From assembly GCA_004123355.1 (NCBI GenBank), contig SCHM01000007.1, forward strand, positions 1,054,001 to 1,118,000: a DNA stretch of 64,000 bases, read 5' to 3'. Below are positions 4,447-61,404 of the stretch, one piece after another. The translations under genes were made by a program, and so were the position numbers. This DNA is from Amphirosellinia nigrospora. Lineage: Eukaryota; Ascomycota; Sordariomycetes; Xylariales; Xylariaceae. Numbering within the stretch: position 1 is the first letter of the stretch; each line of letters opens with the position of its first letter. The notes below the pieces were generated by a model. The model was not told the origin of the DNA. It saw only the letters and a list, made by a program, of their open reading frames with translations, and did no database searches.

Positions 4447-4659
4447 TGTCACGATTGGTGTCCTTTACAGAGGCAAAGCTCCTAGTTGGGTCCCATTTGT
4501 ATATTGATCGAGAGATACTAAGCTAGATCTAGGATCTAGCGGCTAATTCTATCTATAGGGATTTTGTGTGTGTGCACGGTGGGGCTGTCATGTGACTCTA
4601 GGTGGGTCCCGCAGGGACCACCCACTGTATCCACTGTATCTGGTCAGCCACCCGTGACT
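4447..4659 (+). repeat. Solo LTR, family A (TGTCACG...CGTGACT)
   Basis: 213 bp, GC-normal island in mutated DNA. Ends are TGTCACG and CGTGACT, flanked by a perfect 5-bp target duplication AATAT (4442-4446 and 4660-4664). Two more copies lie at 9346 (inverted) and 31240. It contains a GGTCCC/GGGACC palindrome with spacer GCA at 4605-4619. No internal region is attached, so it is the product of LTR-LTR recombination. Superfamily is not provable from the LTR alone; gypsy is likely. Confidence 0.88.
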
Positions 4660-7600
4660 AATATTAAAATATTTAAGCTACCTTTAATATAATAAAATTA
4701 AAAATAATATAAAAGTTTAAAGCTTATTATTACTTAAAGATTAATATAAAATTATTATAAGTTTTAAAAATAAATATTAAACTAAACTTAAATATTAAAA
4801 TATTCGAGCTAGCTTTAATATAATAAAATAAAAAATAGTATAAAAGTTTTAAAGTTTTATTATTTAAAGATTAGCTTATATTTTAAGCTGTAAATTTAGT
4901 ATTATATAATAGGACTAAATATTAAAAGTTTAATATGTTTTATTTTAAAATTATGTAATTTAATTGCGTATTTATATTTTAAGTTATATAATGTATATAT
5001 TAAATATAATATTTATTATAAATAAAAAGTTTTAGTACTTATGTTTAGTACCTATATATTTATATATTTAATTTGTTTATTGTAATATATTGCGCTATAT
5101 AAAGTGCTAAAAATAATATAGCTAACCTATTATTTAAGTATTTAATTTATTTATTAATTAGTTTAATAAATAAATAATTACTAATTAAGCTTAAAGTTAA
5201 AAAATATATATTATAATACAAAATAAATTAAAGTTTTAGTTTTATACTATATATATTTTTTTAATATATAGCTATATATATTTAACTAATAGTTATTAAG
5301 TATTATTTAACGGATAAAAGTAATAAAAATTTTAACAGCTAAACTTAATTAAAATAACGAAATAGATAAAAGTTATTAGGATATTTAATATATAAAATAA
5401 TTAAATATTTTAATATATAAAAATAATTAGGATATTTTAACATATTATTATAATTTATATAAAAATAAAGTATTAATATTTATTATTATATAAAAAATTA
5501 GTAAAGTTTTTATAAGCTTTATATAACCATATAGTTATATAAAGAGTTTTTTGTTTAACTAATTTTAATCCTTGTTTTAGCATATAAAAATAATTAAGAT
5601 ATTTTAACGGACGGATTTTAGCTATTTGTTGTATTCGAACTATATAGTACGGCTGCTTATAAGCTTTACGGCTATTAAATATTGCTATATAATTTAAGTA
5701 AATTTAAAACGGTAAACCGGCTAATAAATAGGTTTTTATAAATTTCTTATATTTAAAATTTAATTTATATAAAAAAACTTCGGATAAAAAAACAAAAATC
5801 TTTTAAATCCTATTGCTATAAAGTTAAGCTAAATATTAGGTTTATATTATTAACGTTATAATATATTAATAAAGGTTAATAAATAATATTTTAACTATAT
5901 TTAAATAATTTAAATATTATAGCTAAAAATATAATAACGTTTATATTATTTTGCTATTTTAAAACTTATTAGATAGTTATTTAGGCAACTTATTAGTATT
6001 ACCTATTTATATATTATCTTTAAGTATTATTTAAACGTTATTTTTTAATTACTATTTAAAATATTGCTTTTAAATATTATTTTTAATTATTGTTTAAATA
6101 TTATTATTAAGATTATTATTTTAATTATTATTTAAATATTGTTATAAAATTATTATTTTAATTATTATTTAAATATTGCTATTTTAATTATTATTTTAAT
6201 TACTGTTTAAATATTACTATTAAGATTACTATTTTTAATTATTATTTAAATATTGCTATTAAAGCATTATTATTTTAAACATTATTTTTACTACTATTTA
6301 AATAATATTATTTTTATATACTTTTCTTTTTTTATTATTGTTGCCTTTTGCTTACTACTTTGCCTAACTTATATTTTTAAAACTATAATATTTAAATTTA
6401 TAACCTAGCTAAGCAATATATTTATTAACAGTCAGTCGTTTTAAACTTACTAAAAGATTTTAATTTAGAAGTCTTTTATTAAATTTAAAAATATATTAAA
6501 GATTTTAATTATAATCCGTAAAATAATAATTTAAATATAAATAATGAAAATATAAATAACAAAATATAAACGATAAAAATATAAACAATAAAGATAAGAT
6601 TATTAATAGTAATAATAGCAAGATTATTAATAATAAAATTAATAAAACGAAAGAAAACCAGCTTAAAATAGTAGAATAATAGATTAAATAGGTAGAAAAT
6701 ATTGTTTTAAACGATATATTATATAATAGCAATTTATAGCTACCCGAATATCATTGTTAAAAAATATTAGACTTAGATTTAAATAATTTTAACTAAAAAT
6801 AATATTTATTTAAAACAGTAATAAGTATTAATAATATAAAGAATGTATAATTTTAATAAGCTAAAAATAAATATAGAAAAATAACGAAATATTAACGTTA
6901 TTAAGTTTATAATAATATTTTATGAAAAGAAATCAAAAAGAAAAACAGTTTAATATTATTTTCGAGATTTTATATAACTTTTTTATTAATATTTTAATTA
7001 GATTACTAATAAAAAAATAAATAAAACAAACATACCTTAAAAAAAACGTTACTAGTAATTTTTTAGTACATATTTTAGCTTACTTTTTAAAAAAAGCATA
7101 ATATTAAAATTAACTAAATTATTAATTATAAAAAAGTTGCTAATATATATTTTTTTTTATTAATTTTATTAAAATTAATATATTTAAATAATTGTTAAAC
7201 TTAATATAAAGTATAAATTTAACTATAACATATAAAAAAACTATTTAATAATTTTATAAAACTTTAAAAATTAATTTATAATAATATTATAAATTACGGA
7301 GAAGTTTTTTAAGCTTAAAGAACTTTATATTTTAGTAGTTCTATTTTTATTATTATTAGCGTTAAAACGCTCGATTAATATTAATCTTTAAGCTAAAATT
7401 TAATAATTTTTAATTATTCTTTATATAAGATTTAATAAACTTTAAAAGTTTTCTAAAGTTTATTATTAAATTTAATATACTTTATATAAAATAGTATTTA
7501 AGGCTTAAAATAATATAAATATTTTGTTTTATATAATTTAATATTTAATTAATAATTATATAATAAATATTTTTATATTTTTAAAATTATTTATAATTTA

Positions 7601-9345
7601 AGCTTTTTTTTTAGTTTATATATATTTTTTTTAGCTATTTTATTTAAGCGTTATGTTTTTTATTCGATTTTTTTAATAATAAGCTTTATTTTATATAATT
7701 TTTAGGTTTATTTAAAAAGTTATAAGTTATTTTTAAATTTAAAAAAAAATTATAATAAAGTATGTTTTTCGAAAACTTATAAGAACTTTTTTAAGCTATA
7801 AATTATTTAAACAATAGTTTTTTTTAGTATAATAATTTAATAGGTTTAAATAATCGGAATATTTTTAAAGTTTAAAAATAATATAATATATTATAGTTTT
7901 CGGTATATAATAAAAAATAACTTAAATCGGAATAATATAGATAATTATTTATTTTTTAATAAATAGTACTAATTTAATATAATAAATATTAACGATTTGC
8001 TTTAAAACTTAATTATAAATTATGTTTAAATTTAAATATTTTTAAAAATATTATTTTGATCAAATATAATAGCCGATTTTTAAGCTATTTATAAAAACAA
8101 ATAGTTTTAAAATGCTTTAATTTAATAGGTTTTTAGCTACGGTTATTTGAAAAAAGGTATAATAACCGATTAATTTTATTTTCATATAAAATTAGCTATT
8201 ATTAATAAATATTTAAAATATAAATATTTAATATAATAGTAAAAAGTTTGCTTTTAAGCTTTTTAAAATGTTTAGCTATTGTTTTAATATATATTAATTT
8301 ATATATAAAGCTAGGAGTTTTAGCTTTAAAACGGGCTTAGTTTAAATAAATTAAATTATAATCGGTAAAAAATATTAAACAAAAATTATTAATAGTATAA
8401 ACTTTTTTACGCTAAAAAAAACCCATTTTTATAGCTTTTTTTTAATAAGACTTTTATATTAATAAATATTTAGCGCAGTTATATTATAGCTAAACAATGG
8501 TTTAATTAATATAAATATTAAAATTATACGATTACTATTTAAATTATTTATTATAAAGTTTAAAAACTTTTAGTAGTTAAGTTAATCGATTTTTAACGAT
8601 TTTTTTATTATATACTAAAAATATAAAAAAAAAAAATAATAAAAAAAAGTATAAAAATATAAATAAAAATAATAATAAGGATTAAATAAAAAATTTAGTA
8701 AAATTAATATCTATATAAAGTATAAACGGAAGTAAAAACGTCCGTAAATGTTTTATTTATATTATAAAAATATTTATAATACTATTAATAAAGCTAGTTT
8801 TTAATAATTTATGTTTGGATTTTTATAATAAAGCTAGCTTAAATAAGCATTTTAATAAAGTATATTTATAACCGGTAAAAAATAATAATAAAATAAAATA
8901 TTTATTTTATAAAGTTATTTTATAAAATAAAATAAAGTTTATAGTTTATATAAAGTTAATATAAGGTTTAAATAATAAAAATATATTTTTATTAAAGCTA
9001 CTTTATGTTTTGCTTTTTTTATTATTAAACAATAACGCTAGGGCTATATTTTAATTTATAAGATTTTTGTTATTTAATTAACTTTTATGTTTAAACCTAG
9101 TTAATCGATGTTTTTTTTTTATTTTTTCATGAAGCTTAAATAATAGTCTTTTATTATTTAAGGAAAAAATAAAAAGTTTAAAATTAATTGCGCTTAATAT
9201 TATTTTTATTTTCTTTTATATTATTAAGTACTCGTTAAATTACTCAATTTGCTATTAGCGTTGCTGCTATTTGTAGTATTATTATATTTATTAAGTTGTT
9301 AAATTTTTTTTTTTTTTTATTTAGCAGTAAACATAAGGTTTTTAA
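4660..9345. other. RIP-degraded AT-rich relic DNA between two inverted solo LTRs
   Basis: About 4.7 kb with no gene, dense stops in all frames and strong loss of CA/TG. A tandem array sits at 6068-6285. The two LTRs at its edges have different target duplications, so they are independent insertions and this is not the inside of one element. The length is compatible with one old retroelement body, but no protein signature survives. Confidence 0.72.
6068..6285. repeat. Minisatellite, about 38-bp period
   Basis: The word TTTAAATATT recurs at 6068, 6093, 6131, 6168, 6206 and 6245, giving spacings of 25, 38, 37, 38 and 39. Units share an AATTATTATTTAAATATT core with a variable middle. It is an AT-rich array inside relic DNA. 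Confidence 0.65.
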
Positions 9346-9564
9346 AGTCACGGGTGGCTGACCAGATACAGTGGATACAGTGGATACAGTGGGTCCCTGC
9401 GGGACCCACCTAGAGTCACATGATCAGCCCCACCGTGCACACACACAAAATCCCTATAGATAGATTAGCCGCTAGATCCTAGATCTAGCTTAGTATCTCT
9501 CGATCAATATACAAATGGGACCCAAGTAGGAGCTTTGCCTCTGTAAAGGACACCAATCGTGACA
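9346..9564 (-). repeat. Solo LTR, family A, inverted copy
   Basis: 219 bp, reverse complement of the LTR at 4447 with the same ends (AGTCACG on the left, CGTGACA on the right). Flanks TTTAA (9341-9345) and TTCAA (9565-9569) match at 4 of 5 positions; the single C/T difference is what RIP would do to a perfect duplication. Relative to 4447 it has an extra short GTGGATACA-type unit. A perfect 9-bp-arm palindrome (GTGGGTCCC/GGGACCCAC, spacer TGC, which is GCA on the other strand) lies at 9389-9409. Confidence 0.87.
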
Positions 9565-12076
9565 TTCAAGAATAATATACGTAATATTAATATTTTTGCT
9601 TTTTATTACTATTTAATTATTTAGTATTATATGGCTTTTTTTCTAGCTATTATTAGCGCTTAATATAAGATTTTAAGCTTAATAAATAAGCTATTTAGCG
9701 TAGTTTATTATATTTTTAGCTATTATAAAAATTAAATAAAGGTTAAAAAAGATAAGCTTTTCGAGTTTTAGGGTAGTAGTTGTAAACCGGTAAAATTAAT
9801 TTTTTTTTATGTTATTTCGATAATTTTTTTTATTAATTTTGTTATTTATAAATATATTAAGTATTGCGCCGCTTTTATTATTGCTATTATTATCGGTTGT
9901 ATTATTATTGTTTTTGTTGTTGTTGTTATTGCTGTTGTTTTTACTTATTTTTTAGCTTTTTGCTCCTTTTTAGCTACCCGATACTTTTTTATTATATGCT
10001 AAAGAGGGTAAAAATAAACGTATATTATATAAAAAGTATCTAAGCATATTTAATATATATTATAGCCTATAAATTAGTTTTTTATATTTTCAATAAAAAA
10101 TAATATTTAATATATAATTTAAAGTAGCTTTATATTAGGCCTTAAAAAAATAGTAAAAATAATAAATATAATATTATGAATATTAAAAAAACTTCGGAAA
10201 AAAATATTATTATTATTATTTTTTCCAAAAAATCTAGCTTTTTATTATTTAAATCTTTTTTATTTAAGTAATAAATAATAATATTTTAAACCTTTTTAAC
10301 CGTTTTAAACTAAACTAATATTATTAACGCTTTAAAATCGAACATTTAATATTAAAAAAAAACTTATAATATTTATATTAAAGTTAAATTTATTGTTTTA
10401 AATATTAATAAACTAAGTATTTTTTTATTATAACTAGCTTAGTTTTTTATAAGCTTAGCTATAATTTATTTTCATAAAGCTTATTTTTATTTAAACTATT
10501 ATTTTAAACTATTTTATAAAATAAAAATCGTTTTTTTTTAAGTTAAATAAGCTTAATTATATAATAATTAAAGCTTAACGTTTTATATATTTTTTTTTTA
10601 AAATAAAAAGCTCGAATAATTTTTAGCTAAATAAATAACGATTGTTTTTATTTTTAATAATATTATCCTAAAATAGCAGGTTAAAGCTTTTTTTAACCGG
10701 TTAGTTTTTAATTTTATTTTATTTTAGTATACTATATTAAAAAAATATTTTTATTAAAAAAAAAGTTTTTTATTTTTTTATTTTTAACGTTACTAGCGTT
10801 TTTAATATAGTTTTTAAAAACTGCTTTATAGCTAAAATCCTCGAATAAAAATGAAACCTATATATTATTTATTAATATTTAATTTTTTTTAATAAAACAA
10901 ACTATAATAATCTATTTAACATTAAAAAAGTTATTATTTTAATATTTAAAATATAAACTTTTATAAAAAAATTTTATTTTTTTTTATTTTGTTTATATAT
11001 TTTATTTCGCTTTTTTTTATATAAAAATCCCGGAAAATATTTTAAATATATAAATAATATAGCTTTAATAAAATACGGCTATAATTTGCAAATTAACGTT
11101 ATTATTTTTATTTTATACGCTTTTAAAATTATTTAATAAAATTAAAATAATACGATTATATTCGAACTTAATAAATATAAATTATTATATTTTAATAATA
11201 ATAATAATATAGCTTTTAAAAATGTAATAGTTGTTTCAAATATGGCTATTAATTTTTCGGAAAGCTTTATATACTAGCTAAAAATATATTTAAATAAGCA
11301 TTTTTGTTTTAAATATTATATAAATATATAAACGGGCAAAATATTTTAAATTAGCGTTTTTTTTTGCTTTTTTAATAATATTAAAAAAAACGTACTAATT
11401 TATATTTTTTTTAAAGCCGTTCGCGCTATAATAGTTTTTATCGCTATTATAATAGCTTAATATAATATTTAAATATTTAATATTATTTTTTAAAAATGTT
11501 AATAAGTTTTATTTTATTAGTAGCTAAAGTATATAACGTTTTAAATATTATTATTAAACTAGTTGTTTTTTATTTAGCGTACTATTTTTTATGTTATAGC
11601 TATTTATAAAATAAGCTTTTTATAAATAAACGTTTATTAAAATTGTATAAATTAACTATTTTTAGCTTATAGTTATATAAATTATTAATATTTTTAACAA
11701 ACGTTTTTTTATTTTATAAAAAATTGCTTTTTTATTTTAAAGCTTGATAAACTATTTTTATATGTTTTTTTTTTTTTTAATAAATATTATTTTTTAATAA
11801 AGAACTAAAGTTTAAAAAATATATAGCTTAAGCTAAATTTTTTTTTATAAATAAAAACAAAGTTATTTTATTTTATTTGTTTATTTTAATAGCTTTAAAA
11901 ACGTTTTTATTTTTTAAAGCTTTATAATATATATAAATAAAGTTATTTTATATTAAAATAATAAATAATTTTATAAAAATTAAGTTTTTAATATTAAATA
12001 TTTTACCGCTTTAAAAAATATTTTAATAATTTTATAATAAATATTTTTAGTTTATTTTTTTATTTATATATATATA
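9565..12076. other. RIP-degraded AT-rich relic DNA
   Basis: 2.5 kb with no gene and no GC-normal island. CA/TG-depleted, with many AGCT, ACG and GCTT remnants typical of the surrounding block. Confidence 0.72.
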
Positions 12077-12289
12077 CTAGAGGCCCCTTAATTCAGGGGC
12101 AAAAATGCTTGAGTTTTTAGGAACCACGTATTTAGGTTAGTAAGTAAGTTGTAGTTGCCGGTTATGCTAGTTCGCTCCTTCCTAATAAGTTACGTGTAGT
12201 AGAACCTGCTATTCTATTTTGATTTATCAACCGTAGTATCCTGTTTTCCTGCGTAACTACGTAACTGCGTCATAAAAACATTCGGCCGT

Positions 12290-12575
12290 TTGGTTAATAG
12301 CAGCAATAGATTTGCCTACAAGTGCAAGCGTCGGCACCGGTATCCTTTACACATCCGCCTCATCAATAGCAGCAATGCACGCTGGAGTTGTACTATCGCT
12401 TTACAATTGGACTACGATTTCGAGCCACGGGGCAAGATTAAGGAGTCAGATGTTACGGCGAATAACCAATTCCCACCCTGGGTGAAGAAGACTCACCGCG
12501 ATATCAAGATCTTCAAAAACGATTTTTAACCCGGGTAAGATTAAAAAAGTTCTCCGGTAGGCACAAGTTGCCATC
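12290..12575 (+). pseudogene. Captured fragment of a fungal dynamin-type GTPase, copy 1
   Basis: The plus strand encodes residues like TRYPLHIRLINSSNARWSC, then a Tyr-Asp rich stretch and a final RWAQ-AILNP motif. In fungal dynamin/Mx-type GTPases this is the segment after the P-loop: a TRYPxxxRL strand, then a (L/R)RRAQxAILNP helix before G3. Neither the P-loop nor the DxPG G3 motif is present, so only an internal piece was taken. Compared with copy 2 at 34006 it has lost one base near 12330, putting the TRYP start in another frame, gained one A near 12515, and acquired G-to-A changes that create stops (TGA-to-TAA style) in the FDPGEIEE region. It cannot make a protein. The gene lies antisense to the element's own orientation. 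Confidence 0.6.
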
Positions 12576-12688
12576 CTGAATCCCAAACACGACCACGAGC
12601 TATCCTCAATCCCAAACACGACCACGAGCTATCTTTAATCCCAAACACGACCACGAGCTATCCTCAATCCCAAGCACGACCACGAACT
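12573..12688 (+). repeat. 29-bp tandem repeat, four units
   Basis: Four head-to-tail units of 29 bp starting at 12573, 12602, 12631 and 12660, consensus beginning ATCCTCAATCCCAAACACGA. The first unit overlaps the AILNP codons of the dynamin-like fragment, so the array grew out of captured coding sequence. Copy 2 has three units (29, 28 and 28 bp). Confidence 0.9.
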
Positions 12689-12754
12689 CTACATTCCAGG
12701 TGACGGCGCCATCGCAAAGTGTACCAATCTCTGCAACGCACTAGACCTTTATCT

Positions 12755-26589: not shown

Positions 26590-26795
26590 TGTTGCAGTTC
26601 ACACAAAATAGAAGGCGTGGCTCCAAAATAGTTTTTATTCGTAGCTGAATCTACAAGTAAGGAAGGAGCGTGTATGTGAGGAACCTGCGCAGCAGGTTCC
26701 GAGCTAAATACTGTGGTGTGGCCCCGCAGGGGCCACAGCCACAGGGATTGCGGGTGCTGTGGCACCAGCCATTTGGCTGGCCACCACCCGTAACT
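26590..26795 (-). repeat. Solo LTR, family B
   Basis: 206 bp GC-normal island starting TGTTGCAGTTCACAC and ending CCCGTAACT on the plus strand. Flanks ATTAT (26585-26589) and ATTGT (26796-26800) form a 5-bp target duplication with one G/A difference. Minus orientation is inferred because that strand shares AGTTACGG, a GTATTTA box, CTTCCTT and TGTAGATT, and a TGTGTGAA end with the LTR at 40746. It contains two perfect 9-bp-arm palindromes with spacer GCA (26680-26700 and 26717-26737). Confidence 0.82.
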
Positions 26796-27950: not shown

Positions 27951-30150
27951 TAGTTTATTTGTATGTATTATTTTGCTTTGGTAATGTATTTATTTAAGAT
28001 TATTTATTAAGTTTTACTTTTTAATTTTAAAAATATACGGCCGGGCTATAGCAATGATTTAATTTTATTAAATTTTTATTAGTTTTATTTATATTATAAA
28101 ACTTTGTTTATATATTTTATATATATTACATTTCATGTTTTTTAATATTATTTTTAGTACTCCGTATATATAAGTTAGTTATATATATATCATTATTTTT
28201 AGATTAAATAAACTTTTTTTAAAAAATATTAAGCGTTAAAAAAATAATTTTTCTAACATATTATGTTTATATTTATTTTTTATTATTGCCATTTTAACGT
28301 TTTTTAGTAACCCTTTTTAAAACTAATATAGTTATAATATTATCTATTAAATTAAACTTTTACGTAAACTATAAATTTTTCTTAATTATTATAGCGATTA
28401 TAATAATATTAGGTTTATTTATGTGATTAATAAAATTTTTTATATAATTTTATAATAATTTTATTTTTTTATTTATATTTAATTCAAATTAGCTTATTTA
28501 TATAATTAATAATAAAAATAAGTCTTAAACTTCGTTTGAATAGTATTATTATTAAAATATTAATTTTTTTAGTTCGAAAATATAGTTTTATATAGAACTT
28601 TAATATTTTAATCCGGAAATTTTATATATATTATAAAACTATTATTATTACTGCTATAATAGCTTAAAGTTATATTCAATTTGTTTTATTTAATTATAAA
28701 TAGAATCGGTAAACTATTATGTAATTTTATTATAATAATTTAGCTTAAAAGTTAATATTACTATTATATTTTATTTAAAAATTTATTTTGAATAATATAT
28801 TTCGCCGAAGTTTATTTATTAGCTATATTTATTATTTTAATTAAACTATTTTTATTTATATTATTTATAGTTGTTTTTAAATAAATATTAAAACAATACA
28901 TTTTATTAAATTAATTGTTTTATTAATATTATTTATATGTGAGGTTTGTTTTGTTTATATTTATACTTTTAACATAAACCTTATAATTTATTTATAGTTT
29001 ATTAATATTATTAAATAATTTATATTAAAATATATTATTACGTTTTATACTTTTTATTTTATTTATATATTTATGTTTATATATTAATATGAAACTAAAT
29101 TTAAATCATAATAAAATTATTATTTATGTTATATATAATAGTACTAGACATTTTATTTAGTACAAAAATATTTATTTTCAAAAACTTTATTTAATAAAGT
29201 TTATTAATTTTAATGTTATTTATCGGTTTATTTAAAAATATGTATTTTAAAATATTATTATATAACATAATAAACTAAAAATTTTATTTTCTTTAAAATC
29301 TTTGCTTATAATCATAATAAATAAAAATTTTTATATTATTCATTAGTTAATTTTAAATAATTATATAAGAAATAATTAAAAAAAGTTAATAATTAGTTTA
29401 TTTTTTTATGAAATATTTTATAAAAATTTTTGTCTTTTCTTTAATTTTATTTATTATAATATAGTTTTAATTTTTTAATTTTTGCTGTTAAAACTAAATA
29501 TTTTAATTCTTGATATTAATATTATTTTATCGTTTATATTAATATATACACTATTTAATATTAATTTATTAAAAATAATATAAATATAATAAAAACGTTT
29601 ATTTTATTTATTATATTTATAATACCTTTCATTATTTTTATAATTTTATTTTTTAAAAGTTTTTATAACCATTACGTAAATCTTATCATTTTTTAGAGCT
29701 ATTATATAAAAATTTTTTTTAATTATATTTGCTATATTATTAATAATTTATTAAAAAAATTTTTTTCTTTCTATATATTTAATATCATATTTTAATTATA
29801 ACAATAATATTTATTAGGATTATTATATTTTAATTCGTACATTTTATTATATTATTATTCGTACGTTTTATTATATTATTATTACATATTTAGTAAATAA
29901 AAATTAATATAAATATTAAATTAATAATGAAAAATTTAAAGACTATAATATTCATTATTTATGAAATTAAATAATATATTAAAACAAAAATAAACTCTAT
30001 TTATTATAATCCAATTTATATTTTATAAATTATAAATATTATCCGACAAAACGTTTGTTTATTTTTTAAAGATATTCAAAAAATGTTTCAACTTATAATT
30101 ATTATTACTATTATAAGTTTATTAAAAGTTTAAATGTAATATATTTAAAA
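27951..30150. other. Mutated relic DNA, direct copy of 23140-24660
   Basis: 2.2 kb, no gene. From about 27965 it follows 23140-24660 in the same orientation, interrupted by AT-rich gaps. The two have diverged mainly by C/T and G/A, consistent with independent RIP of a duplicated repeat. Confidence 0.65.
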
Positions 30151-30278
30151 AGAAGGAGCGAGGAGAAGTGTGTTGTTCTATTGAAGGTGCGAAGCACCTG
30201 TTTGTCATGTCTGGATATGCCTGGCTGGAGCTGGCTGCGCCAGCTGCTAACAGCTGTCATCAGACCGACGGCCCAGCT
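30151..30278 (+). mobile_element. 130-bp GC-rich element, best-preserved copy
   Basis: An unmutated island, AGAAGGAGCGAGGAG to CGACGGCCCAGCT, with related mutated copies at 39541 (minus), 41785 (minus), 49197 (plus) and 55951 (plus). It contains GGTGC/GCACC with spacer GAA (30186-30198) and AGCTGGC/GCCAGCT with spacer TGC (30229-30245). No coding capacity, no A/B box and no LTR ends that I can prove. GGAAGGAGCG is shared with the LTR at 26590, so a distant relation to that family is possible. Class unknown. Confidence 0.75.
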
Positions 30279-31239: not shown

Positions 31240-31664
31240 TGTCACGATTGGTGTCCTTTACAGAGGCAAAGCTCCTAGTTGGGGTCCCATTTGTATATTG
31301 ATCGAGTGATAGTGTGGCTCCAGGTGGCGACTGGCAGAGCCCTGGCGGGCACTGCAAGCCAGCCCCACCCCACAGCTATAAGTATTTAGCCCACCACAGA
31401 AACTAGACTTAGTCTTTACTTAATCAACCAACCTAGTATATTGAGAACTGATCTACACAGCCCAAACCGCAATAGTGAAGGCCCGTAGGTTACTCAATAT
31501 AGGTTGACAAGCACGCACAATAGTAGGCTAGATCTAGGATCTAGCGGCTAATTCTATATATAGGGATTTGTGTGTGCACGGTGGGGCTGATCATGTAACT
31601 CTAGGTGGGTCCCGCAGGGACCACTTCCACTGTATCCACTGTATCTGGTCAGCCACCCGTGACT
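31240..31664 (+). repeat. Solo LTR, family A, with another LTR nested inside
   Basis: Ends TGTCACG and CGTGACT, with a perfect 5-bp target duplication AAAAT (31235-31239 and 31665-31669). Without the 207-bp insertion at 31313-31519 its length (about 215) matches the copies at 4447 and 9346. It carries the GGTCCC/GGGACC palindrome with spacer GCA (31608-31622). Confidence 0.9.
31313..31519 (+). repeat. Solo LTR of the gypsy element at 1-2865, nested in a family A LTR
   Basis: 207 bp from TGTGGCTCCAGG to GCACGCACA, nearly identical to the reverse complement of 2660-2865. ATAG flanks it on both sides (31309-31312 and 31520-31523) and occurs once at the equivalent point of the surrounding LTR. 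It proves that the gypsy family inserted after family A and then lost its body by LTR recombination. Confidence 0.92.
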
Positions 31665-38862: not shown

Positions 38863-40745
38863 AACTTATTTATATATTTTTAAATATAATTAAAAATTTA
38901 TATATTTTGTTAATTTTAAATTAAGTTATTTAATATTATAAAAATTAATAATAATAAATTTATTTCTATAATTAAAATAAACTAAAAATTAATAAAAAAC
39001 CGCTTAAATTAATATAAATAATATTAGCTTTTTTATAAAACTTTCAATTATTTTATTTTATAAAAAAATAACTATTAAAAATAGCAATTTTATTAAACTA
39101 TTATAAATTAATAATTACTTAGTTTTTATTTATATTATTAATTTTTTTAAGTAATAAATATAAAATTTGCGAAAAATATAGCTTTATTTATTTAAATTAT
39201 ACGATTTATTTTATAAAGTTGATAATAAATTTTTAAATATAAATAACTTTAATAAATTTCTATAAAACTCAGTTGTTTTTATAATTTTTACTTTATTTAA
39301 ATTTTTTAATATATAATTTTTTCTTTTTTATAACGTAAGCTTAAATAGCTTTTTTATTTAGGTTTTAATTTTAGCTATTTTTTATTTTAATAAATAAAAA
39401 CTAGCTTGTTAATTTTAAGTTAAAACTTAGAGCTATAAAAAGCTTATTTTTTTATTTAAATATTTTGATAAACTTATTTGATTTTTTTTAACTAATATTA
39501 AAATTAACTAATATATTATATTACTAAATTTATTTATAGTAGCTAGGCCGTTGGCCCAATAATAGCTATTAATAGCTAGCACAGCTAGTTATAGCTAGGC
39601 ATATTTAAATAGGACAAACAAGTGCTATATACCTTTAATATAATAACTATTTCTTTTTCGCTCCTTTTTTTTATAGTTTATTATTCGGTAATTCGAACTT
39701 ATTTATAATTAAAATAGGTTTTAATTTATTAGTTTTAAGTAAATATATTTGTTTCAATGTTTTTTATAAATAATATTTATATAATATTTTAGTAAAGTTA
39801 TATTTAATACTTTTTATATATTTAAAGTTTAAATATTTATTAATAGTAAAATTTTTATATTTTATAACTTATTATTTTTATATTTTAGGTTATTTATTTA
39901 AACTATAAAATAACCTATATTTTATTAAATATATTTATTTATTTTATTAAGTATTTTATTAGTTTAATATTTTATTAGTTTAATATTTTAATATAAAACT
40001 AATAATGTATTAATTATTTTTATTTTCTCATTTTTTATATAATCTTAAAAGTTTTATAAAATAAAATACTTTTTAAATTAATACATAGTATTAATAATAA
40101 AATGCTTATTTTATTAGTTTAATGTTTTATTTTAAGAAATATTATCTTAGCTATATAATTAATTATAAAATAATATTAGCTATATTAACTAAAATAGTTT
40201 ATTATCTAATAAATATATGGATTCTTTTATATAAATATTAAAAAAAGTCTAATAAAGTTTACTATCATAATTTAAAATAGTTTATAAATAATAATAAATA
40301 AATTAAATATTATTATTTTTAAAAATTAAAATAAATATATTAGAAATATTTAATATATATTTAATAGCGTTTATAGTTATAATAAATTAATATATTAATT
40401 AGTTTATTTTTTTTAAATAATTAAAGCATAATAATAGCTTAATAAGTTATATATTTATTATAATATATTTAATATTTTTTGATATAAAATATTATTCTTA
40501 GTAATTTTTAAAATAATATTTTAGCTAATTATTTTATATATTAATGTTATATATTTTAGCTTTTTCTTAGTTATTAGATTTTTTAACTTATATAAATATT
40601 TTTATACGTTTAAATATTAATAATAATAAATAAACTTATTTTTAATATATGGTTTAATATTAAATTATTATTAAAATAATATGAGAATAAATCCGGGGTA
40701 AAATTAATATTATTAACGGTATTAAATAACGCGTTATATCATATT
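38863..40745. other. Mutated relic DNA, homologous to 49460-50780 and inverted 41040-41760
   Basis: 1.9 kb, no gene. 39260-40740 follows 49460-50780 in the same orientation, and 39260-40010 follows 41040-41760 inverted. Both partners lack the 130-bp element inserted here at 39541. Confidence 0.68.
39541..39669 (-). mobile_element. 130-bp GC-rich element, partly mutated copy
   Basis: AGCTAGGCCGTTGG to CGCTCCTTTTT, inverse of 30151-30278, with many C-to-T/G-to-A differences. Flanked by a perfect 8-bp duplication TTTATAGT (39533-39540 and 39670-39677). The homologous relics at 49730 and 41340 lack the insertion, which confirms it as mobile. Confidence 0.8.
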
Positions 40746-41026
40746 AGTTACGGATCTGCAGGCTCTGGTGGCTGTGCCCCACCACTAGCCACAGTACCCG
40801 TAATCTCCACTTGCAGTAACTGCCACTTGTGGTGAATGCAGTGAATGCAGTTGCAGTGAATGAAGGCAGGCACTGGCAGTGAATGCAGCTGCCCCACGCG
40901 AGTATTTAAGCAGCTGCCTATACTATAGATTTAGACCTTCCTTCCTTCCTACTCTATCTGTAGATTTTATATGCAATATACCACATATGCTGGAGCCTTG
41001 TCTCTTCGAGTGTGTGAAGCGTAACT
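40746..41026 (+). repeat. Solo LTR, family B-related
   Basis: 281 bp GC-normal island from AGTTACGGATCTGCAGG to GAAGCGTAACT. Contains a GAGTATTTAAGCAG TATA-like box, a CCTTCCTTCCT tract, TGTAGATT and TGTGTGAA in the same order as the inverted LTR at 26590, so the two are related. No convincing target duplication. It sits at the junction between the two inverted relic copies 39260-40740 and 41040-41760. Confidence 0.72.
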
Positions 41027-45344: not shown

Positions 45345-46187
45345 CTAATTTAAACTTTTTAAAACTTTTTTTTTAATCGTTTAGGTAATGAAATATAAAC
45401 TAATTATTTTTATAATTATTTATTTAATGATATTTATTATAATTAAACTCTTTATTTTTAATTTTATTAATTAAATTTTATTTTTATTTAATTTTTTCAA
45501 TTTTTTTAAAATTATTAATAATAATATTAAGCTCATTTTTTATAAGTTTTATTTTTTATTTATCATTAATGAATTTTTTATTAATTTTATTAAGTTATTT
45601 GTTTTGTTAATATATTTTAATTTTATATATTGTAAAATTATTTATTATTATTTTTAATTATTACGAAACGTTAAATTATTAATTAATTATTTTATTAAAT
45701 AAATATCAATATTTTATTATTTTCATTTTTAATTTGATAATAAATTTTTTTAATTTGTTTTCAATTAATATTTATTGATTAAATAGGTAAAATATATTAA
45801 TTAAAGTTTTCGAAAATTAATTAATTATAAAAACAATAATAATATTAAAATAATAATAATATTAACAATAATATTAAATTCATTAGCTTAATTAATATAT
45901 TTATATTATTATATATTTTTAATTTTTTAGTTATAAATTAAATAAACTATATTTTTATCAAATACTAAGAAAGTTATTTAAATAACTACAATAGCTTAAT
46001 ACCTTTTTATTTTACGTAAAAAAGGCTTTTTTTATACGTACTATATAATATTTATTTATGTACAAAATTATACATATATTATATAGCTATTGAGACATTA
46101 ATAATTATATAATTCATTATTCACTTAATTAAATATTAGATTTATCTATTAATAATAATTAAAATTATTCAATTAATTTATTAATTA
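45345..46187. other. Mutated relic DNA, direct copy of 37150-38005
   Basis: 840 bp, no gene. Follows 37150-38005 closely up to about 46115, then short unrelated AT-rich DNA to the next foldback. Confidence 0.68.
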
Positions 46188-47490
46188 AGCCCCCAAGGGG
46201 TGTTGCTAGGTGGCTTCCCCTGCGCTCCGTAGATAGACAGCTGGCACACTGCCAATCAGAGAATCTATTATTAGATCCACTGCGTGCATCTAATAATAGA
46301 TTTCCTGACTTCTTAATCAAGCTTTACTTTACAACCCATATTATTTTTCTCATTTATTTTATACTTTTATTTTACTTTTTTAGTTTTATTCTATATATGA
46401 AAAAATTAATTAGTTTTATCATATTTTTAATATTTATTGTAAAATAATTTTCGCATATATATTAAATATATATAATATTTTTTTATTTATTTTAATATTA
46501 AAACGCTAAATTATAGTTTTATAAATAATCATTATTTCTATATTGTTTCATTAAACGTTTTTTATATTAATTAATTAATGTATTATTTTTCATTAATGAA
46601 AGTTTTAACTTTCAGTTTTTTTTTATATTATATAAATGTTTTTAATATAATCAACTGATTTACATATAAAATATTAAAAACTAATATAATTAATAAATTA
46701 TAAAATTATTTATATGCTCATTTCTTTGAATATTATTCATTTAAATATACTATATTTATATTTATTTAGCTAAATTAAAACTGTTAATTTAGTTTAACGA
46801 TTTGTATTTAAAGTATTTTATATTTATATAATTCTTATTATTCTTATTATTCTTTATATATTTCTTTATAATATTAATATTTTTTTGTATAAAAAATTAG
46901 TTCAAAAATATTTTTTAATAATATTAATAGTTTTTTTTGATATTATTAACTTTTTTTTAATATGCAAGTTTTTTATAATAAAACTTTAAATGTTAAATAA
47001 TATCATAATATTTTAAAGCTATAATAAAATTAATAGTAAAGAAACTTTTTATTTTATTTTGAAAGTTATATCATTATATATAAAATAAGTAATATTTATA
47101 ACTATTATATTAAATAATACGAATTTCTTAATTTTTATAGTTTATTTATTTAAATTTAATAAAATAGTACACTCTATTTTTACAATAAATAATTAATAAA
47201 TTAGAATATAAAACATTTTAATAATATTAACATAAATAAAATTATTATTGTTTTTTAATTTATTTAATTTAAAGTTTTATTTAATAATATATTTATGAGA
47301 AGAATATTATGGGTTGTAAAGTAAGCTTGATTAAAGGAAGAGAATCTATTATTAGATCCACGCAGTGGATCTAATAATAGATTCTCTGACTGGCAGTGTG
47401 CCAGCTGTCTATCTAGATACAGGTGTTGCCAGGTGGCTTCCCCGCGCTCCGCGCAGGGAAGCCACTGGCAACACAGACCCCTTGGGGGCT
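46188..47490. mobile_element. 1.3-kb foldback element with palindromic arms and mutated middle
   Basis: Left end AGCCCCCAAGGGG, right end CCCCTTGGGGGCT. The inverted repeats run about 150-190 bp inward, to TTTACAACCCATA on the left (46330) and its inverse near 47308. The right arm holds two internal palindromes: 47339-47387 with 23-bp arms and spacer GCA, and 47423-47475 with a GTTGCC..GGCAAC outer stem and an inner GCGC/GCGC with spacer TCC (GGA on the minus strand). The left arm has lost most of the second. The roughly 960-bp middle is as AT-rich as the surroundings. No transposase is visible, and a target duplication is unclear. Confidence 0.83.
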
Positions 47491-50400
47491 CTATCAATTT
47501 AATAAATAAAATTGTTTATATATATTTAAAAATATAACAAATAACGTTTTTATGATTAAAACTATACTTTTTATTTGATATAGTTTTTAATTATATCAAT
47601 AAATATTGAAAATTAAAATTGAAGTTTAAATTGCATGAAAGAAAATTCATAAAAAATATACATAGTTTAATTTATAATAAAAAGTTTTATAATTTATTTA
47701 GCTTTTAATTTTAGCTTTTAATTTGTTTTAACAATTATAATAATATATTTAAATTCTGTATTTTATATAGTTTAAGCATATTTTCTTTATAAAATAAAAT
47801 ATAAACAATTTAATTATAATAAATTATTAAATAAGTAATTATAAAAATAAATAGTTTATATTTAATTATAATTAAAAAATGTTAAGCTTTTTAAATAAAA
47901 TAGTAAAAAAATAAATAAGTTTTTTAAAAAGTTTAAATTAATTAATTTTAAAAAAATAAAACTAAAGCGTAATTTTATTAAAAAAAAATTTAAAAAAAAA
48001 AAAAAAAAATTATTTTTATTTTAAATTTAAATTTAAATTTATTAACTTTATTATTATGATTATTAATTTTAAAGAATTTAATATTATTTATTATAAATGA
48101 ATTTAAAAAAGCTTTTATTTATAAATACAATTAAACTAAAATAATATAAATTTAAACTAAAGCTGCATAAAAAAAACTCTTTAAGAAAATTTAAAACTAA
48201 TTAAATAATTTTCAAAATTTTATTAGTTTATAGAAAAAACTATTATGAATATAAATAATTATTAATATATTAAAAGTAGCTTTTTAAATTTTAATTAAAA
48301 ATATCAAAAAAAATTAAATATGTTAAAAGTTTTTAGCAAAATTTATGATATTATAAACTAAATATATTAAAAAAATATATAAAATAATATTAATTATAAA
48401 ATAATAGAAATGTTTTTATATTTGTTGTAATTAAATGTTTTAAAAATATGAATAATATAAAAAACCCCAAATATTTTTCTTTCTTTTTTGGTTTCTTATT
48501 TTTTAAAATAATTATAATATTATAAATTATAGTTTAATAATAGTAGTTTAATATAAGATTATATTATATAAAGTAACTTTAAGCTAACAAATCTTTTTAT
48601 TTAAAAAATAGCTTTAACTTTAATAATTATTCAGCTAGATCTTTATTAAAAAAACTATTATAAACTTATTTATAAAAAAAAATAAAAAAACTATAAATTT
48701 ATTTATTATAGCGAGTTTATTTATTAATTAAACAATAACGGTCTTTTTTATTAAGCGAAAATTAGTTTTAGTAATAATAAATCTCATGATGATTTAAAAC
48801 TAATTATTTGAAATAATTTAATACTAATTATTAACCCGGTTATTAAACAAGAAATATAGTAATAATGCTTTTAATGATATTCAATTTTATATTTTTGTTT
48901 TAATAATAATGTACTAAGTATTAAAATTATTACATAAAAAATTAATAATATTTTAAAAATATTTATATTTTAAAAAACTATCATATTTTAATATATAAAC
49001 GTTATATTTTATTTAGTATAAAATTAAATATAAAAATATATAATAATAAAGCTAGTTTAAAAAAAAACTAATAGTAAGTTTAATCAAAAAAACAAAAAAG
49101 TACATAATATATAAAAAATAAACTTATATAAATTAAAAAAATCGGCATTATTATAAAAAACTTTAAAACTTTTAATAAAAATAAATACAAAAAAAACAAA
49201 AAGCGAAAAAATAGTTATTATATTAAAAGTACGAAGCACCTATTTATTTTATCTAAATATATACCTAGCTATTATTAGGCTAACGGCCCAGCTAAGTTAA
49301 AGCAAACATTAGTACCGTACGCCTTTACGCTTTTCTAAATATTTAAATTTATTTAAATTTATATATAAACTGTTTTAAAAATACTATATACTTTTTGTTT
49401 TTTTTCGTTTATAAATAACTATTTTTTAATATAAATAGGTTTAATAAATTTTTTATAAAATTTAATTTTTTTATAACTTTTAATTTATTTAAGTTTTTAA
49501 AGATATAACTTTTTTTTTTTTATAATATAAGCTTACATAGCCTTTTGGATTTAGCTCTTAATTTCGGCTATTTTTATTTTAATAAATAAAAACTAGAGTT
49601 TTAACTTTAAATTATACTTTATCACTATAAAAAGCTTATTTTTTTATTCGAATATTCTTATATATTTGTTTAATTTTTTTAAATTAATATTAAAGCTAGC
49701 TAATATATTATACTATTAAATCTATTTATAGTCTATTAATTAATGATTTAAGTTTATTTATAATTAAAATAGTTTTAGTTTATTGGTTTTAAATAAATAT
49801 ATTTATTTAAATATTTTTTATAAATACTATTTTATAATATTTTAGTAAAGCTATATTTAATAGTTTTTATATATTGAAAGTTTAAATGTTTTATTAATAA
49901 TAAATTTTATATTTTATAATTTTATTTTTATATTTGAGGTTATTTATGTAAGGTTTAAAATAAATTATTATTTTATTAAATATTTTTATTAATTTAATAT
50001 TTTAATATAAAGCTAATAAAATATAATTGTTTTTATTTTTTGTTTTTTACATAATTTCGGAAATCTTATAGAATAAAAGCGTTTTTTAAATTAGCGTATA
50101 ATATTAGCAGCCAAATACCTGTTTTATTAATTTAACGTTTATTTTAATAAATGTTATTTTAGTTATATAATTAATCGTAAAATAATATTAGCTATATCAA
50201 TTAAAATAATTTATTAGATAATAAATATATTAATTTTTTATATAAATATTAAAACAAGTTTAATAAAATTTATTATTATGATTTAAAATAGTTTATAAAT
50301 AATAATAAATAAATCAAGCGCTGCTATTTTCTAAAATTAAAACAAATATATTATAAATATTTTAATATATATTTAGTAGTATTTATAGCTATAATAAATT

Positions 50401-55950: not shown

Positions 55951-56074
55951 AAAAATGAAAAGAAATAGTTATTATATTGAAAATAGGAAGTATTTATTTG
56001 TTTTATTTAAATATATTTAGCTGTAGCTAGCTACGCTAGCTGCTAATAGCTATTGTTAGGCCGACGGCCTAGCT
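55951..56074 (+). mobile_element. 130-bp element, mutated copy
   Basis: Keeps GAAATAGTTATTATATTGAA, GTAGCTAGCTACGCTAGCTGC and GGCCGACGGCCTAGCT in the order of 30151-30278; most other C and G positions are T or A. Confidence 0.75.
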
Positions 56075-59000
56075 AATATAATATAAAATATATTTTGTAT
56101 ATTTTTTTTTTTATTAAATATATTTTTAAAAAATAATTATATAAAATAAAAAATTATTTAAATAAATAAATTATAAAGAATATTTATAAAATAGTTATTA
56201 TAAATTTTAATATTTAATAGCTTAGTTTTTGTTACAAATATGTTTAAAAAAAAGTTTATATAATATATTAATATTAAAAAAAACTTTAAAAATTCGCGTT
56301 AAATATAGGAAATAAAATTAAAACGTTAAAAATTTATTATTTAAATTATTATTAAAATTTTTTTTTAATATTATTAGCTATCTTATTTTAATATTAAAAA
56401 TTTAATATTAAGAATTAACTATTTTATAAATATTATAATTAAATTTAAAAAAATAAAAAAATTATTTTTTATAATTAAATTAAAGGTAAAAAATATATTT
56501 CGAAAAAAAGCTATTAAAAAACCGATTGTGTTAAAAAATAATTTAAATAAACTTTAGTTAAATTAAACTAGTTTTAATGGAAAAATATAAATATATTTTA
56601 TTTATAATAAATAGTAATAATAAATATTATATTTTTAAAATATATAAAATAAAAATAAAATAAAAAACATTATTAAAATATATTTATAATAAATAAATAA
56701 AAATTAATAATTTAAGTATTTTAACTTAATAAAAATAATTTAAAAAATGTTACATTTTATATATAAATAAAATAAAAAGTTCGGTTAAAAAACTTAAAAA
56801 TTTCTTATGCTAAAATAAAAAGAATTATTATCATTTTATTATTTATAAATTAATATTAAAATAATATAATTAAAAAATTATTAAATGTTATTTAAAATAA
56901 AACTAAAGCTTTATTTTTATAAACTAAATTATTAATTATATTTTAAATATATAAAATTTTAATAATATATTTTTATCAAAATTAATTAATTTGAAACAAA
57001 AAAATAACTTTAGCTAGAAAATATTTTAATTATTTAAATCAAAAGAAATTTTTTTTTAATAATGTATAAATAATAAATATATATATATAATATTTATCGA
57101 TAAATTTATATATATATTCGCTAAAAAATTAAAAGCTAAAAAAACTAGTGCTATATTTTTAAATTATAAAAGTATATTTAATTATATAGTTTAGTTTATT
57201 AAAAATAATAAAATAGTTATGTGTTCATTATTGCTTAAAATATAATCTAAATTTAAATAATATTACTAAAAAATTAAAGAATTTATTTAAATACAATATT
57301 ACAATTATAATAGTATTAAAAGTAATATTATAAATAATAAAAACGAACTGAAAAATATAGCTAACTTAAACATTAAACTATTAAACTAACTTTCATTATT
57401 AAACGTAGCGAAAAAAAACTTTAAAAAAATCTAGCTAAAAGTTTATATTCATTGTATAAAATAAATAAAAATTATTTTAATTAAATAGAATATTAAAATA
57501 AAAAAAATAAAATATATATGTAAATAATTTTATATATAATGTAAAATATAAAACTAAAATAAATAAGTTTAAAACGTAAAAACTAATATAATATTTATAA
57601 TTTATAAACAACTAAATTAAATAAACTAAGCTATTTTTATATTTTTAAAAAGTTATTTTTCTATAAATTATTTATAAACATTATTCAAAAAATTTGAAAT
57701 AAAAATATTTATATTTAATAAATTTATTTGAAAAAAAATATCTATAAACAAATAAAAATAAAAATTTAAAACTATTTTAAAAAATATATATTTTATTTAA
57801 ATATAATATTTTAAGATTTATAAAATGTATCAAAGCTATTTATAACTATTTTATTCATTATATATAAGTATTAAAAACAAAGATTTATTAATTAATCAAC
57901 CATATAAACATAAAACTAAAATTTATATTTATAAGTGTATATAATATAACAATATTAATTATAATAAAATTTTTTTTTATAGCTTAAATAATAATAAAAT
58001 TCTTTTTAATAGTTTTCATAGCTATTTAAAAATAATAGATTATTTAAATCGAGTCTATAATAATGTGTTTTAATAAAACCTTTTATAAAAAATATTTATC
58101 AAATAGGTTAAAATGTTAAAAAATCTTTTTAAAACTTTCAAATTAGAATAAAAAAATATAATTAACTTATTAAAAATTATGAAACTAATAAAGCTTTTAC
58201 ATAGCTTTAAATAATTAAAATATAAATAATAAATTCAAACCAAAAAATTATAAATTAAATTAAATTTAAGCTTAGAATTTTTAATATTATATGTATTAAT
58301 TATAAAATGAAAAAAAATATAATATTTATATAAATAATTTTTTTATTATAAAATATAGTTCAAATTATTTAAAAATATTATTAATAAAATAAGTAAAATA
58401 GTTTTAATAAATAATTAAAACTAAACTAATTAGTTTTTAAACATATAAATTATAAAGAATCAAATAAATGATAATATAAGTTTTAATTAAGAATAATATA
58501 TAATTAAAATATTTAATTTTATTAGCTTAAGTTTAATATATAAATACTTTATATTCATAAACATTAAAAAATAATTTATGTTATAAAACGTAGAAAGAAA
58601 ATATTTTTAAAAATAAAATATTTAATTATATTTTTTTATTTATTAAGCTAGATTTTTCAGCTAAAATTATAAAGCTTAATATAAGTTTTATTACTTTTAT
58701 TTAAATAAAATCCGTAGTAAATTTGTTAATATATACTAAGAATATAAAACGATTAACTAAATATATAAAAAATATTTAAATATATATATTAAATATAATA
58801 AACTAAAAAAAACTATTTATATACAATTTATAATATGTAAGTTTATTTATTATTATTAATATTATTTTAATATTAGATTTATAAAATAATAAATTATTAA
58901 TAAAATATATTATATTTTTAAATAATACGCTAGTATTATAGTATTTTAAACTATAATTAATTATAATAAAAAACTTTACTAAAAATAAATATATTATAAT

Positions 59001-59979
59001 AAATAATCTAACGTAAATAAAAAAATTTTTGAATACACTTAAAATATTATTAAATATTTTATTATTTTTTATATATAATATAAACATTATAAATGAATTT
59101 GAATATATAATTATTTTAAAATAAAAAAAATATATAAAAAATATATATTATTATATTAATAAAAAATATAAGCTAATTATATTAAATGAATAGATACAAA
59201 ATTAATATATAATTTAAATAATAAGTGAATTAAACTATTAAAAAAAGCTAAATATTAAAGGTTTTATTTTTTGTTTAATTTATAAATTAAAAAAATTAGC
59301 AAAACAAAAAACAAAACTAAGCTTTTTTAAAAATTTATAATAATAATAATTAATTTAAATATTTTAGAATTTATAAACTTTATAAAGTTAATTGGATTTA
59401 TTTTATTATACGATTGATAAGCTTATTAAATAATAAAAAACAATATTTAGTTAGAAATAATTAGTATTATGTAGTTATTTTTTAAATTTAAAAAAGTTTT
59501 AAAACTTTAAATTTGAAAAAAGTTTAAAATATTAAAAAAATAGCGCTATTTAATTATTTATTCAATAAATATTTAAATAAATATAAAAAACAACATCATT
59601 TTATTTTATATATTTTATAAAAAATAAAATATTTAAAAGTTTTGTTTTTTTAATTTTAAAAATAAAAAAATTATATTAAAATTATAATAATAATGAAAAC
59701 GTTTATAAATAATAATTTTAAGCTTGATAAAAAAATGAATTTACTTTTAAATAAAACATATAGTTTATATAGATAAATAAATATTATATTTAATTTAATT
59801 AATTAATTATATATTTTTAAATATAAAAAAAAGTTTAATTATAATATTAAATTAATTTAAAGTTTTCCATTATTATTTTTTTAAAGTTTATAATATCATA
59901 ATATTCATAGGTCAAAAAAATATTAATATATAAATTTCATAATAAATTATATAATTATTAATATTTAAGTAATTATATA

Positions 59980-60250
59980 ATACTATAATATATAGTTTTA
60001 TATAATATATAGTTTTATATACGTATAAATACTACGTAATATATATAAAAAAGCTTTTTTTACGTAAAATAAAAAAGATATTCAACTATTATAGCTATTC
60101 AAACAAATTCTTTAATATTTAATAAAAAAATACCTTATTTAGTTTATAATTAAAAAACTAAAAATATATAATACTTTAAATATACTAATTAAGCTAACTA
60201 ACCTAGTATTGCCCCTAGTACCAATATTATTTCTATAACTATAATAAACT
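59980..60250 (-). repeat. Terminal segment of a relic element, inverted
   Basis: Follows 43140-43400 in the same orientation: AAAAAAGCTTTTTTTACGTAAA, then TTAAAAAACTAAAAATATATAA, then AATTAAGCTAACTAACC. The outermost bases have decayed. Confidence 0.6.
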
Positions 60251-61334
60251 TTTAAAAATTAATATTTAAACTATTTAATAAATGATAAAATTTATAAAAT
60301 TAAAAAAAAAACCAAATTTTTTTAATATTATAATTATATTAAAAAACCGCAAAATAAACAAAGGTCTAAAATATATTTCAAACTAATATATTTAAAATAA
60401 TAAAACTATTATTAAATTTTTAATAAAAAATATTTCTTCATAAATAATTATTTTTAAAGTTATTAATAATTTTAAAAACTATAATTTATATTAAAGAATT
60501 TTTATAAAACACTATTAAAGTTGAAACATGAAAAATATTTAAAATATTTAAAACGTTTTAAAAATAATTATTAATAACACTAAAATAAAAACTAAATATA
60601 TAAAATAATAAAAATAAAAACAATTCGTACAATTTTATAGAAACGTTAAATGTTTTTATTAAATAAACTATTAAAAATATAAATAACTTTTTTTCATTAA
60701 AATACATATTTTAATTATTTTTATTAATTATTAAACTTCTATTTTTATTTTGAATTGTTTTTAATTTATTATGCTTGAAATTATTGTTTTAGTTAATTTA
60801 TTATAATATAAATATTTCATTTAAAAATAAATATATTAAAAAAATCGAATAAACTAATTAGCTATAAATATATATTAATAAACTTTTTTATTTATATTAG
60901 AAAATTTCAATAAAAACTAATAAAACAACTTATATAATAATAATAATAATAATTATAATAATAGCTATATAAATAAATAAAAATATAAAAGCTATAGCTT
61001 ATATAATTAAAAGAAATTATTAAAAATATACTAAACTTTTTAAAATATCTATTATTTACAAAATCGTTAAATTATTTACTAATTAATAGCTTTAAGATAT
61101 TTTAAAAAAGATAAAAAATCTATTTTTACTATAATAAAAAAAACTATATATAACCGCAAAATATATTAAATAAAACAAATAATTATACAAAAAAATTAAA
61201 CTTATTTAAAAATAAAAATATTATTAATATATAAATTTATATTTATAAAGCTTTATTATTAAAAAATTTAGTTTAAATTAGCTTAGTAATATTATAACGT
61301 ATTTATTTAAAAAAAACATTTATTTTATAAATAT

Positions 61335-61404
61335 GCTACACTCTGACGGGGGGGTGACCCCCGCAGGGGGTCCCCACTGCAGAGTGGAGCCTACTACACT
61401 ATCC
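61335..61404. other. Tiny GC-rich hairpin island
   Basis: 70 bp of GC-rich DNA in otherwise mutated sequence. An outer pair CACTCTG/CAGAGTG (61339-61386) encloses a perfect GACCCCC/GGGGGTC palindrome with spacer GCA (61356-61372). No partner copy in the window; probably the remnant or whole of a miniature element. Confidence 0.7.

Follow-up and report, generated by a model that had tools for sequence, protein, structure and literature searches.

Putative extrudable C-GNA-G DNA hairpins in five long terminal repeat families of a fungal genome

Introduction

DNA oligonucleotides of the form d(GCGNAGC) fold into hairpins, and triloops of this class make tiny DNA hairpins unusually stable. Here we describe palindromes with such loops, written C-GNA-G below (three nucleotides [nt], G first and A last on one strand, closed by a C-G pair), in five families of long terminal repeat (LTR)-like elements of the ascomycete Amphirosellinia nigrospora (GenBank assembly GCA_004123355.1). 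The families, called A, B, C, D and S130, were met in one 64-kb stretch, the window (C9:1054001-1118000, on contig SCHM01000007.1), of a 48.1-Mb genome in 11 contigs.

The early promoters of the phage N4 virion RNA polymerase are described as having short inverted repeats, rich in G and C, around a 3-nt loop with the same closing pair and loop ends; their hairpin extrusion is reported to require the C:G closing pair together with a 5' G and a 3' A in the loop (PMC4496689). Those promoters belong to a phage with its own RNA polymerase in bacteria, whereas the palindromes described here lie in noncoding eukaryotic LTRs and have GNA on either strand. In Streptomyces telomeres, palindromes are likewise capped by GNA loops (GCA, GGA), for which sheared G-A pairing and compensatory changes are reported (PMC7205883); they stand at the ends of linear chromosomes, unlike the scattered, internal, duplex LTRs considered here. 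Hairpins made by template switching resemble ours in their perfect arms and in having related copies with inverted loops, the combination of loop inversion and perfect stems being a published footprint of that process (PMC8794818). As described there, they occur in genes for rRNA and microRNA, loops of 4 nt being the commonest, in contrast to C-GNA-G triloops in LTRs; plastid and avian cases of template-switch hairpins or minute loop inversions have also been published. Among LTR retrotransposons of filamentous ascomycetes, GalEa Copia elements have a Conserved Hairpin Site, described as a palindrome of 9 bp at the end of the 5' LTR, directly after the LTR and in place of the primer binding site, with its complement 12-41 bp downstream (PMC5445492). 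We rejected this site as a match, since the palindromes described here lie inside the LTR and have 3-nt spacers. The titles and abstract openings listed by searches of an open library on LTRs with palindromes, triloops, GCA loops or cruciforms yielded no earlier description of C-GNA-G palindromes in LTRs.

Triloop palindromes in five LTR-like families

An earlier note on the window had quoted ten palindromes with their coordinates, and all ten were found in place. Among perfect inverted repeats of the window whose arms were 6 bp or longer and had at least 50% G+C, 14 had a 3-nt spacer, repeated copies of one element being counted separately, versus 1 to 4 for each other spacer length from 0 to 12 nt. 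When every family was reduced to one representative (859 bp altogether), 10 triloop palindromes were counted against 0.18 expected, with a maximum of 2 in any of 500 dinucleotide-preserving shuffles of the five representatives. The C-GNA-G class, which reads C-TNC-G on the other strand, accounted for 8 palindromes against 0.004 expected (shuffle maximum, 1), and the remaining 12 spacer lengths together yielded 7. The full D element, fetched from elsewhere in the genome, added a further palindrome, CTCCTGCC-TCC-GGCAGGAG. Read from the opposite strand it is C-GGA-G, and it was perfect in three of four copies. Altogether, 9 of 11 triloops belonged to the C-GNA-G class. These palindromes are real and far above chance in the five families, and the proposal of the earlier note that a C-GNA-G hairpin module with unrelated arms recurs in several mobile element families was borne out. 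Their coordinates are given in Table 1.

The five families were picked for palindromes in one window, and other LTRs lack the motif, as would be expected if GC-rich scraps in DNA of 17% G+C merely looked palindromic to a selective reader. We regard such an origin by chance or selection of cases as next to negligible, because shuffles fail to reproduce the number of C-GNA-G palindromes and the extra palindrome of the full D element appeared outside the window copy.

Table 1. LTR-like elements and palindromes located in the window (window coordinates).
Feature	Position	Strand	Remarks
Family A solo LTR	4447..4659	- (sense)	Flanked by target duplication AATAT; sense judged by RT strand and polypurine tract in a full-length copy
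A-h2 palindrome GGTCCC-GCA-GGGACC, C-GNA-G	4605..4619	.	From inverted-repeat count
A-h1 palindrome GCTAGATC-TAG-GATCTAGC, non-GNA triloop	4522..4540	.	Counter-example
Family A LTR, opposite orientation	9346..9564	+	Flanks TTGAA/TTAAA, imperfect duplication
A-h2 palindrome, 9-bp arms, loop GCA (plus strand TGC)	9389..9409	.	
A-h1 palindrome, loop CTA/TAG	9471..9489	.	
Family A LTR with 208-bp module at 31312-31519	31240..31664	-	Target duplication AAAAT
A-h2 palindrome, loop GCA	31608..31622	.	
A-h1 palindrome, loop TAG	31527..31545	.	
Family B LTR, no perfect duplication	26590..26795	-	Sense inferred from polypurine-tract complement at three other copies
B-h1 palindrome GGAACCTGC-GCA-GCAGGTTCC	26680..26700	.	
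B-h2 palindrome TGTGGCCCC-GCA-GGGGCCACA	26717..26737	.	
S130 (130-bp element)	30147..30278	.	Duplication imperfect at window copy
S-h1 palindrome AGGTGC-GAA-GCACCT	30185..30199	.	Elsewhere loop GAA or GTA
S-h2 palindrome AGCTGGC-TGC-GCCAGCT	30229..30245	.	Elsewhere loop mostly TCC
Family C solo LTR TGAGAAG..CTATCA	47296..47496	.	Target duplication ATTTA; right "end" of supposed foldback
C-h1 palindrome, 23-bp arms, loop GCA	47339..47387	.	TGC in L084, L085
C-h3 palindrome CTGGCA-GTG-TGCCAG, non-GNA, A-T closing pair	47390..47404	.	
C-h2 palindrome core GCGC-TCC-GCGC	47444..47454	.	Arms of 8 bp elsewhere
Second family C LTR (inverted), inserted separately	46182..46352	-	Own target duplication ATAAA
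Family D LTR copy, internally deleted	61334..61420	.	Target duplication AAATA
D-h1 palindrome GACCCCC-GCA-GGGGGTC	61356..61372	.	
Decayed S-h2 relative, loop TAC (window element TGC)	56025..56041	.	Mutation-decayed; matched by eye

The carriers are LTR-like

Repeat copies were compared across the genome. Matches listed numbered 41 for family A, 22 for B, 16 for S130 (the 130-bp element) and 19 for D (the "island" of the earlier note), and 82 for C (the foldback end), these last coming from 40 scored out of 100 candidates and including many self-matches of the palindrome. Alignments comprised 31 A copies (3 from the window, 8 loci fetched by an exact 15-mer and 20 further copies), 19 B, 22 C (2 from the window and the 20 best others), 16 S130 and 19 D copies.

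All five palindrome carriers are LTR-like. Perfect 5-bp target duplications flanked 40 of 93 copies examined (A, 12/31, five A entries with empty flanks not being counted as perfect; B, 4/19; C, 11/22; S130, 9/16; D, 4/5); at the other copies the flanks differed or were too short, or the ends were not found. A full-length family A copy (C10:1164844-1171931) has two direct LTRs, a reverse transcriptase (RT) match with three stops and a polypurine tract. Its RT match lies on the plus strand, the LTRs are minus in the orientation used here, and the tract stands just before the right LTR; the sense strand of A therefore reads the loop as TGC. In family B, direct LTR pairs lie 6.5-6.6 kb apart, and the complement of the polypurine tract known from A adjoins copies L048, L049 and L056; a search of the pair interiors for RT gave no match. 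Two pairs of family C copies (L095/L094 and L099/L096) have internal flanks in common, with no RT match inside and no clear polypurine tract. D and S130 were represented by solo-like copies only among those listed.

The earlier note had spoken of unrelated element types. The palindrome arms are indeed unrelated, but the carriers are of one kind, and A and B have the terminal sequence CCACCCGTRACT in common. Two of the supposed types dissolved altogether. The "1.3-kb foldback" was rejected as a foldback transposon because its two arms carry different target duplications, ATAAA and ATTTA (Table 1), and they are two separate insertions of an LTR in inverted orientation. The "island" is a copy of an LTR of ~250 bp that has lost internal sequence. 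The C-h2 arms in the window are only 4 bp long because of a small deletion in that family C copy.

The window as a whole has 17% G+C, with 1-kb pieces as low as 8%. For comparison, 19 stretches (171 kb) were sampled at positions chosen irrespective of content, together with the flanks of repeat copies, and G+C was 45-53% in 16 of the 19. The AT-rich part of the window bears the dinucleotide signature of repeat-induced point mutation (RIP): between 14 and 22 kb, the indices were 1.31 for TpA/ApT and 0.30 for (CpA+TpG)/(ApC+GpT), whereas two of the sampled stretches with normal G+C gave 0.77-0.83 and 1.15-1.21, respectively. Young LTR copies sit in strongly mutated AT-rich DNA, which makes the palindromes easy to find.

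Variation among copies

The A-h2 loop was GCA in 17 and TGC in 1 (L005) of 31 copies, the share of intact palindromes being inflated by the 8 copies fetched through an exact 15-mer. C-h1 had GCA in 11, TGC in 2 and TGCG in 1 of 22 copies, and C-h2 had TCC in 9 and GGA in 6 of 22, with one more GGA copy (w46190r) recognised by eye. Among the 16 S130 copies, the S-h1 loop was GAA in 5 and GTA in 10, and the S-h2 loop was TCC in 9, TGC in 1 and GCC in 1. In the remaining copies the arms were damaged, the loops differed or the hairpin could not be aligned; much of the damage was C-to-T or G-to-A change. The middle base of the loop is free, in line with the GNA rule, and the class outlasts C-to-T change, since GCA becomes GTA.

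Related copies differed by inversion of the triloop in A-h2, C-h1 and C-h2 (GCA/TGC or TCC/GGA), so the strand with GNA is not fixed. All four combinations of C-h1 and C-h2 loops occurred, which means that inversion recurred or that copies recombined. In D and S130, the two hairpins have GNA on opposite strands.

Changes on both arms of a palindrome are weak evidence, and we rejected covariation as proof of structure because most double changes are RIP directed. A T-A to C-G change of C-h1 in three copies falls within RIP context, and the A-T to G-C double change of B-h1 in L051, L054 and L058 is the sole case outside it.

Loss of hairpins was also recorded. In L039 and L040, which lie 10.4 kb apart, S-h2 is gone with 23 nt between CAGCTG repeats; the same loss in both indicates that a hairpin-less form may have spread. 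B-h2 was lost in L050 and L057 between TGTGG-like repeats, and L058 shows a different loss. The earlier note had suggested that a minute palindrome is itself mobile, to be judged by aligning copies with and without it. Both kinds of copy occur, and a short direct repeat marks the break, in keeping with an insertion into the five families. The breaks in L039, L040, L050 and L057 nevertheless fit slippage deletion, and an insertion duplicating CAGCTG is less favoured: the repeats at the breaks belong to the arms, as slippage deletions leave them, arm sequences are unrelated across families, and 91 kb from 25 loci, taken outside the five families, contained no free C-GNA-G palindrome whose arms reached 6 bp. 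A mobile palindrome is consequently very improbable.

Two minor observations concern single families. Copy L089 has an 11-bp tandem duplication within one C-h1 arm, a slippage or template-switch scar, and in family D copies L124, L126 and L127, AGTGGAG/CTCCACT occurs in alternating copies, from which either of two hairpins, with the 4-nt loops CCTA and GATA, might form to the exclusion of the other.

Template switching as a possible origin

We favour, with about even confidence, the explanation that these are putative extrudable C-GNA-G DNA hairpins grown by template switching, likely at reverse transcription. A short C-GNA-G seed would fold back while the LTR is single-stranded, either as cDNA in reverse transcription or in the course of replication. 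By switching template, the polymerase would then copy one arm from the other, by which the arms would be made and kept perfect, and switching would occasionally invert the loop. The product would be a hairpin able to extrude from the duplex on whichever strand has GNA. Such seeding and copying would explain why the loops have three bases and are of this class, why the arms are perfect yet unrelated, why loops flip and why there are several hairpins per element. We infer folding of DNA rather than of a transcript from the indifference to strand and the inverted loops, template switching as the maker, and reverse transcription as the stage; reverse transcription, or else selection, is suggested because sampled DNA other than these LTRs shows no C-GNA-G excess. 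The requirements reported for N4 extrusion are precisely the features kept here. In ViennaRNA with the Mathews 1999 DNA parameters, C-GCA-G surpassed all other triloops of the 64 in stability on the one test stem, and an RNA energy set gave no advantage to GNA loops.

A stem-loop acting in the retrotransposon transcript, in dimerisation, packaging, protection or strand transfer, would have precedents in other LTR elements, namely Ty1 dimerisation and the fungal GalEa hairpin site (PMC5445492 for the latter). We nonetheless consider it unlikely here. Because of loop inversion, the transcript of one copy would have GNA where that of another has TNC; the sense strand of A and, judged by the adjoining polypurine tract, that of B have TGC rather than GCA; and the two hairpins of D, like those of S130, have GNA on opposite strands.

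Several results weigh against the template-switching explanation. All spacers quoted in the earlier note were GNA with C-G closure, but 2 of the 11 triloops, A-h1 (TAG, in all three window copies of A) and C-h3 (GTG), which the note had missed, are not GNA. The Mathews 1999 set has no bonus for GAA, GGA or GTA, and the Mathews 2004 set has none for any of the 64 loops. The double arm changes mostly run from GC to AT, as expected if RIP acts on either strand of a palindrome. Furthermore, a general template-switch bias would be expected in other DNA too, so that its absence from 164 kb of sampled DNA (18 stretches) counts against it. There, C-GNA-G palindromes with arms of at least 4 bp numbered 18, versus 16.3 in six shuffles and 18 for a control with the loop reversed; with arms of at least 5 bp the figures were 6, 4.5 and 1, and with arms of at least 6 bp they were 1, 0.8 and 0. 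Triloops of any sequence with arms of at least 6 bp showed a mild excess in the same DNA (66 versus 38.7 in shuffles) and as such are therefore not peculiar to LTRs. In the 171 kb, 13 GC-rich triloops had arms of 6 bp or more and none of them was C-GNA-G, nor was any of 264 triloops with such arms outside the five families (25 loci, 91 kb of repeat flanks plus two AT-rich stretches). The earlier expectation that GNA loops with C-G closure are commoner than predicted thus holds for the five families but not for the 164 kb sampled.

Other LTRs were sampled blind to palindromes, by a polypurine tract joined to an LTR start. Of the 16 places obtained, two were known A and B copies; the other 14 stretches, of 401 bp each, comprised six copies of a family E, four of a family F or its relative G, one decayed A copy and three without a match to an LTR family. 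None of the 14 contained a C-GNA-G palindrome with 6-bp or longer arms. Families E, F and G are without the motif though they share the life cycle, which likewise tells against template switching at reverse transcription; one E copy lies 2.6 kb from a same-strand RT whose reading frame is open. The motif was present in five of the eight LTR families met, a ratio that gives no frequency, since those five were met through the motif. E and G have a stem-loop with loops of 7-9 nt near the LTR start (L131, L134, L137 and L141; window 40745-41026), at a position roughly matching that of the A and B triloop hairpins read in sense.

These stem-loops of E and G also fit a different account, in which a DNA cruciform is selected because it excludes nucleosomes, offers a structural binding site or marks a promoter or poly(A) region in silent AT-rich chromatin, and template switching merely supplies the variation. 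A single structural class in five families with unrelated arms agrees with it, as does the persistence of both loop orientations, which is expected if extrusion from the duplex rather than the strand matters; in yeast, short inverted repeats near gene ends are reported to have mostly low nucleosome occupancy (PMC6420913). Conversely, E, F and G manage without the C-GNA-G form, and L039 and L040 of S130 and L050, L057 and L058 of B each lack one hairpin, so that a strict requirement for it is doubtful. We hold a selected cruciform to be possible but would not back it. The suggestion in the earlier note that such a module is selected in many mobile elements gains from its recurrence in five families and loses by its absence from E, F and G, and is unproven.

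Beyond the origin by template switching, we suggest still more guardedly that eukaryotic LTR retrotransposons may have repeatedly acquired supercoil-extrudable C-GNA-G hairpins, the device of N4 and Streptomyces, and may use them at the DNA level, in reverse transcription or in keeping LTRs open in heterochromatin. If the pattern is confirmed in more genomes, a loop rule known from oligonucleotides, phage and bacterial telomeres would also shape eukaryotic transposons, and the inverted loops and free middle base would be natural multi-copy records of DNA hairpin formation inside cells. Creation, flipping and loss of hairpins can be traced copy by copy, and selection versus template-switch bias is a testable contrast.

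Other features of the window and the genome

Three further segments (39535-39606, 49261-49343 and 56007-56089) were recognised by eye as old, heavily mutated relatives of S130, which has probably long been resident in this genome, given such remains. The 208-bp module inside one family A LTR (31312-31519) contains a TATA-like stretch and recurs at 2659-2865, upstream of a gag-like open reading frame (ORF). It is missing from the other 30 aligned A copies; its presence in a single A LTR suggests exchange of modules between LTRs. The gag-like ORF (798-2276, minus strand) encodes 492 amino acids with a zinc knuckle (PF00098), and an RT match lies near it just beyond the window, at C9:1053541-1053915. 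Elsewhere in the genome, the final 7 kb of the 57-kb contig C2 (L021) has only 10% G+C.

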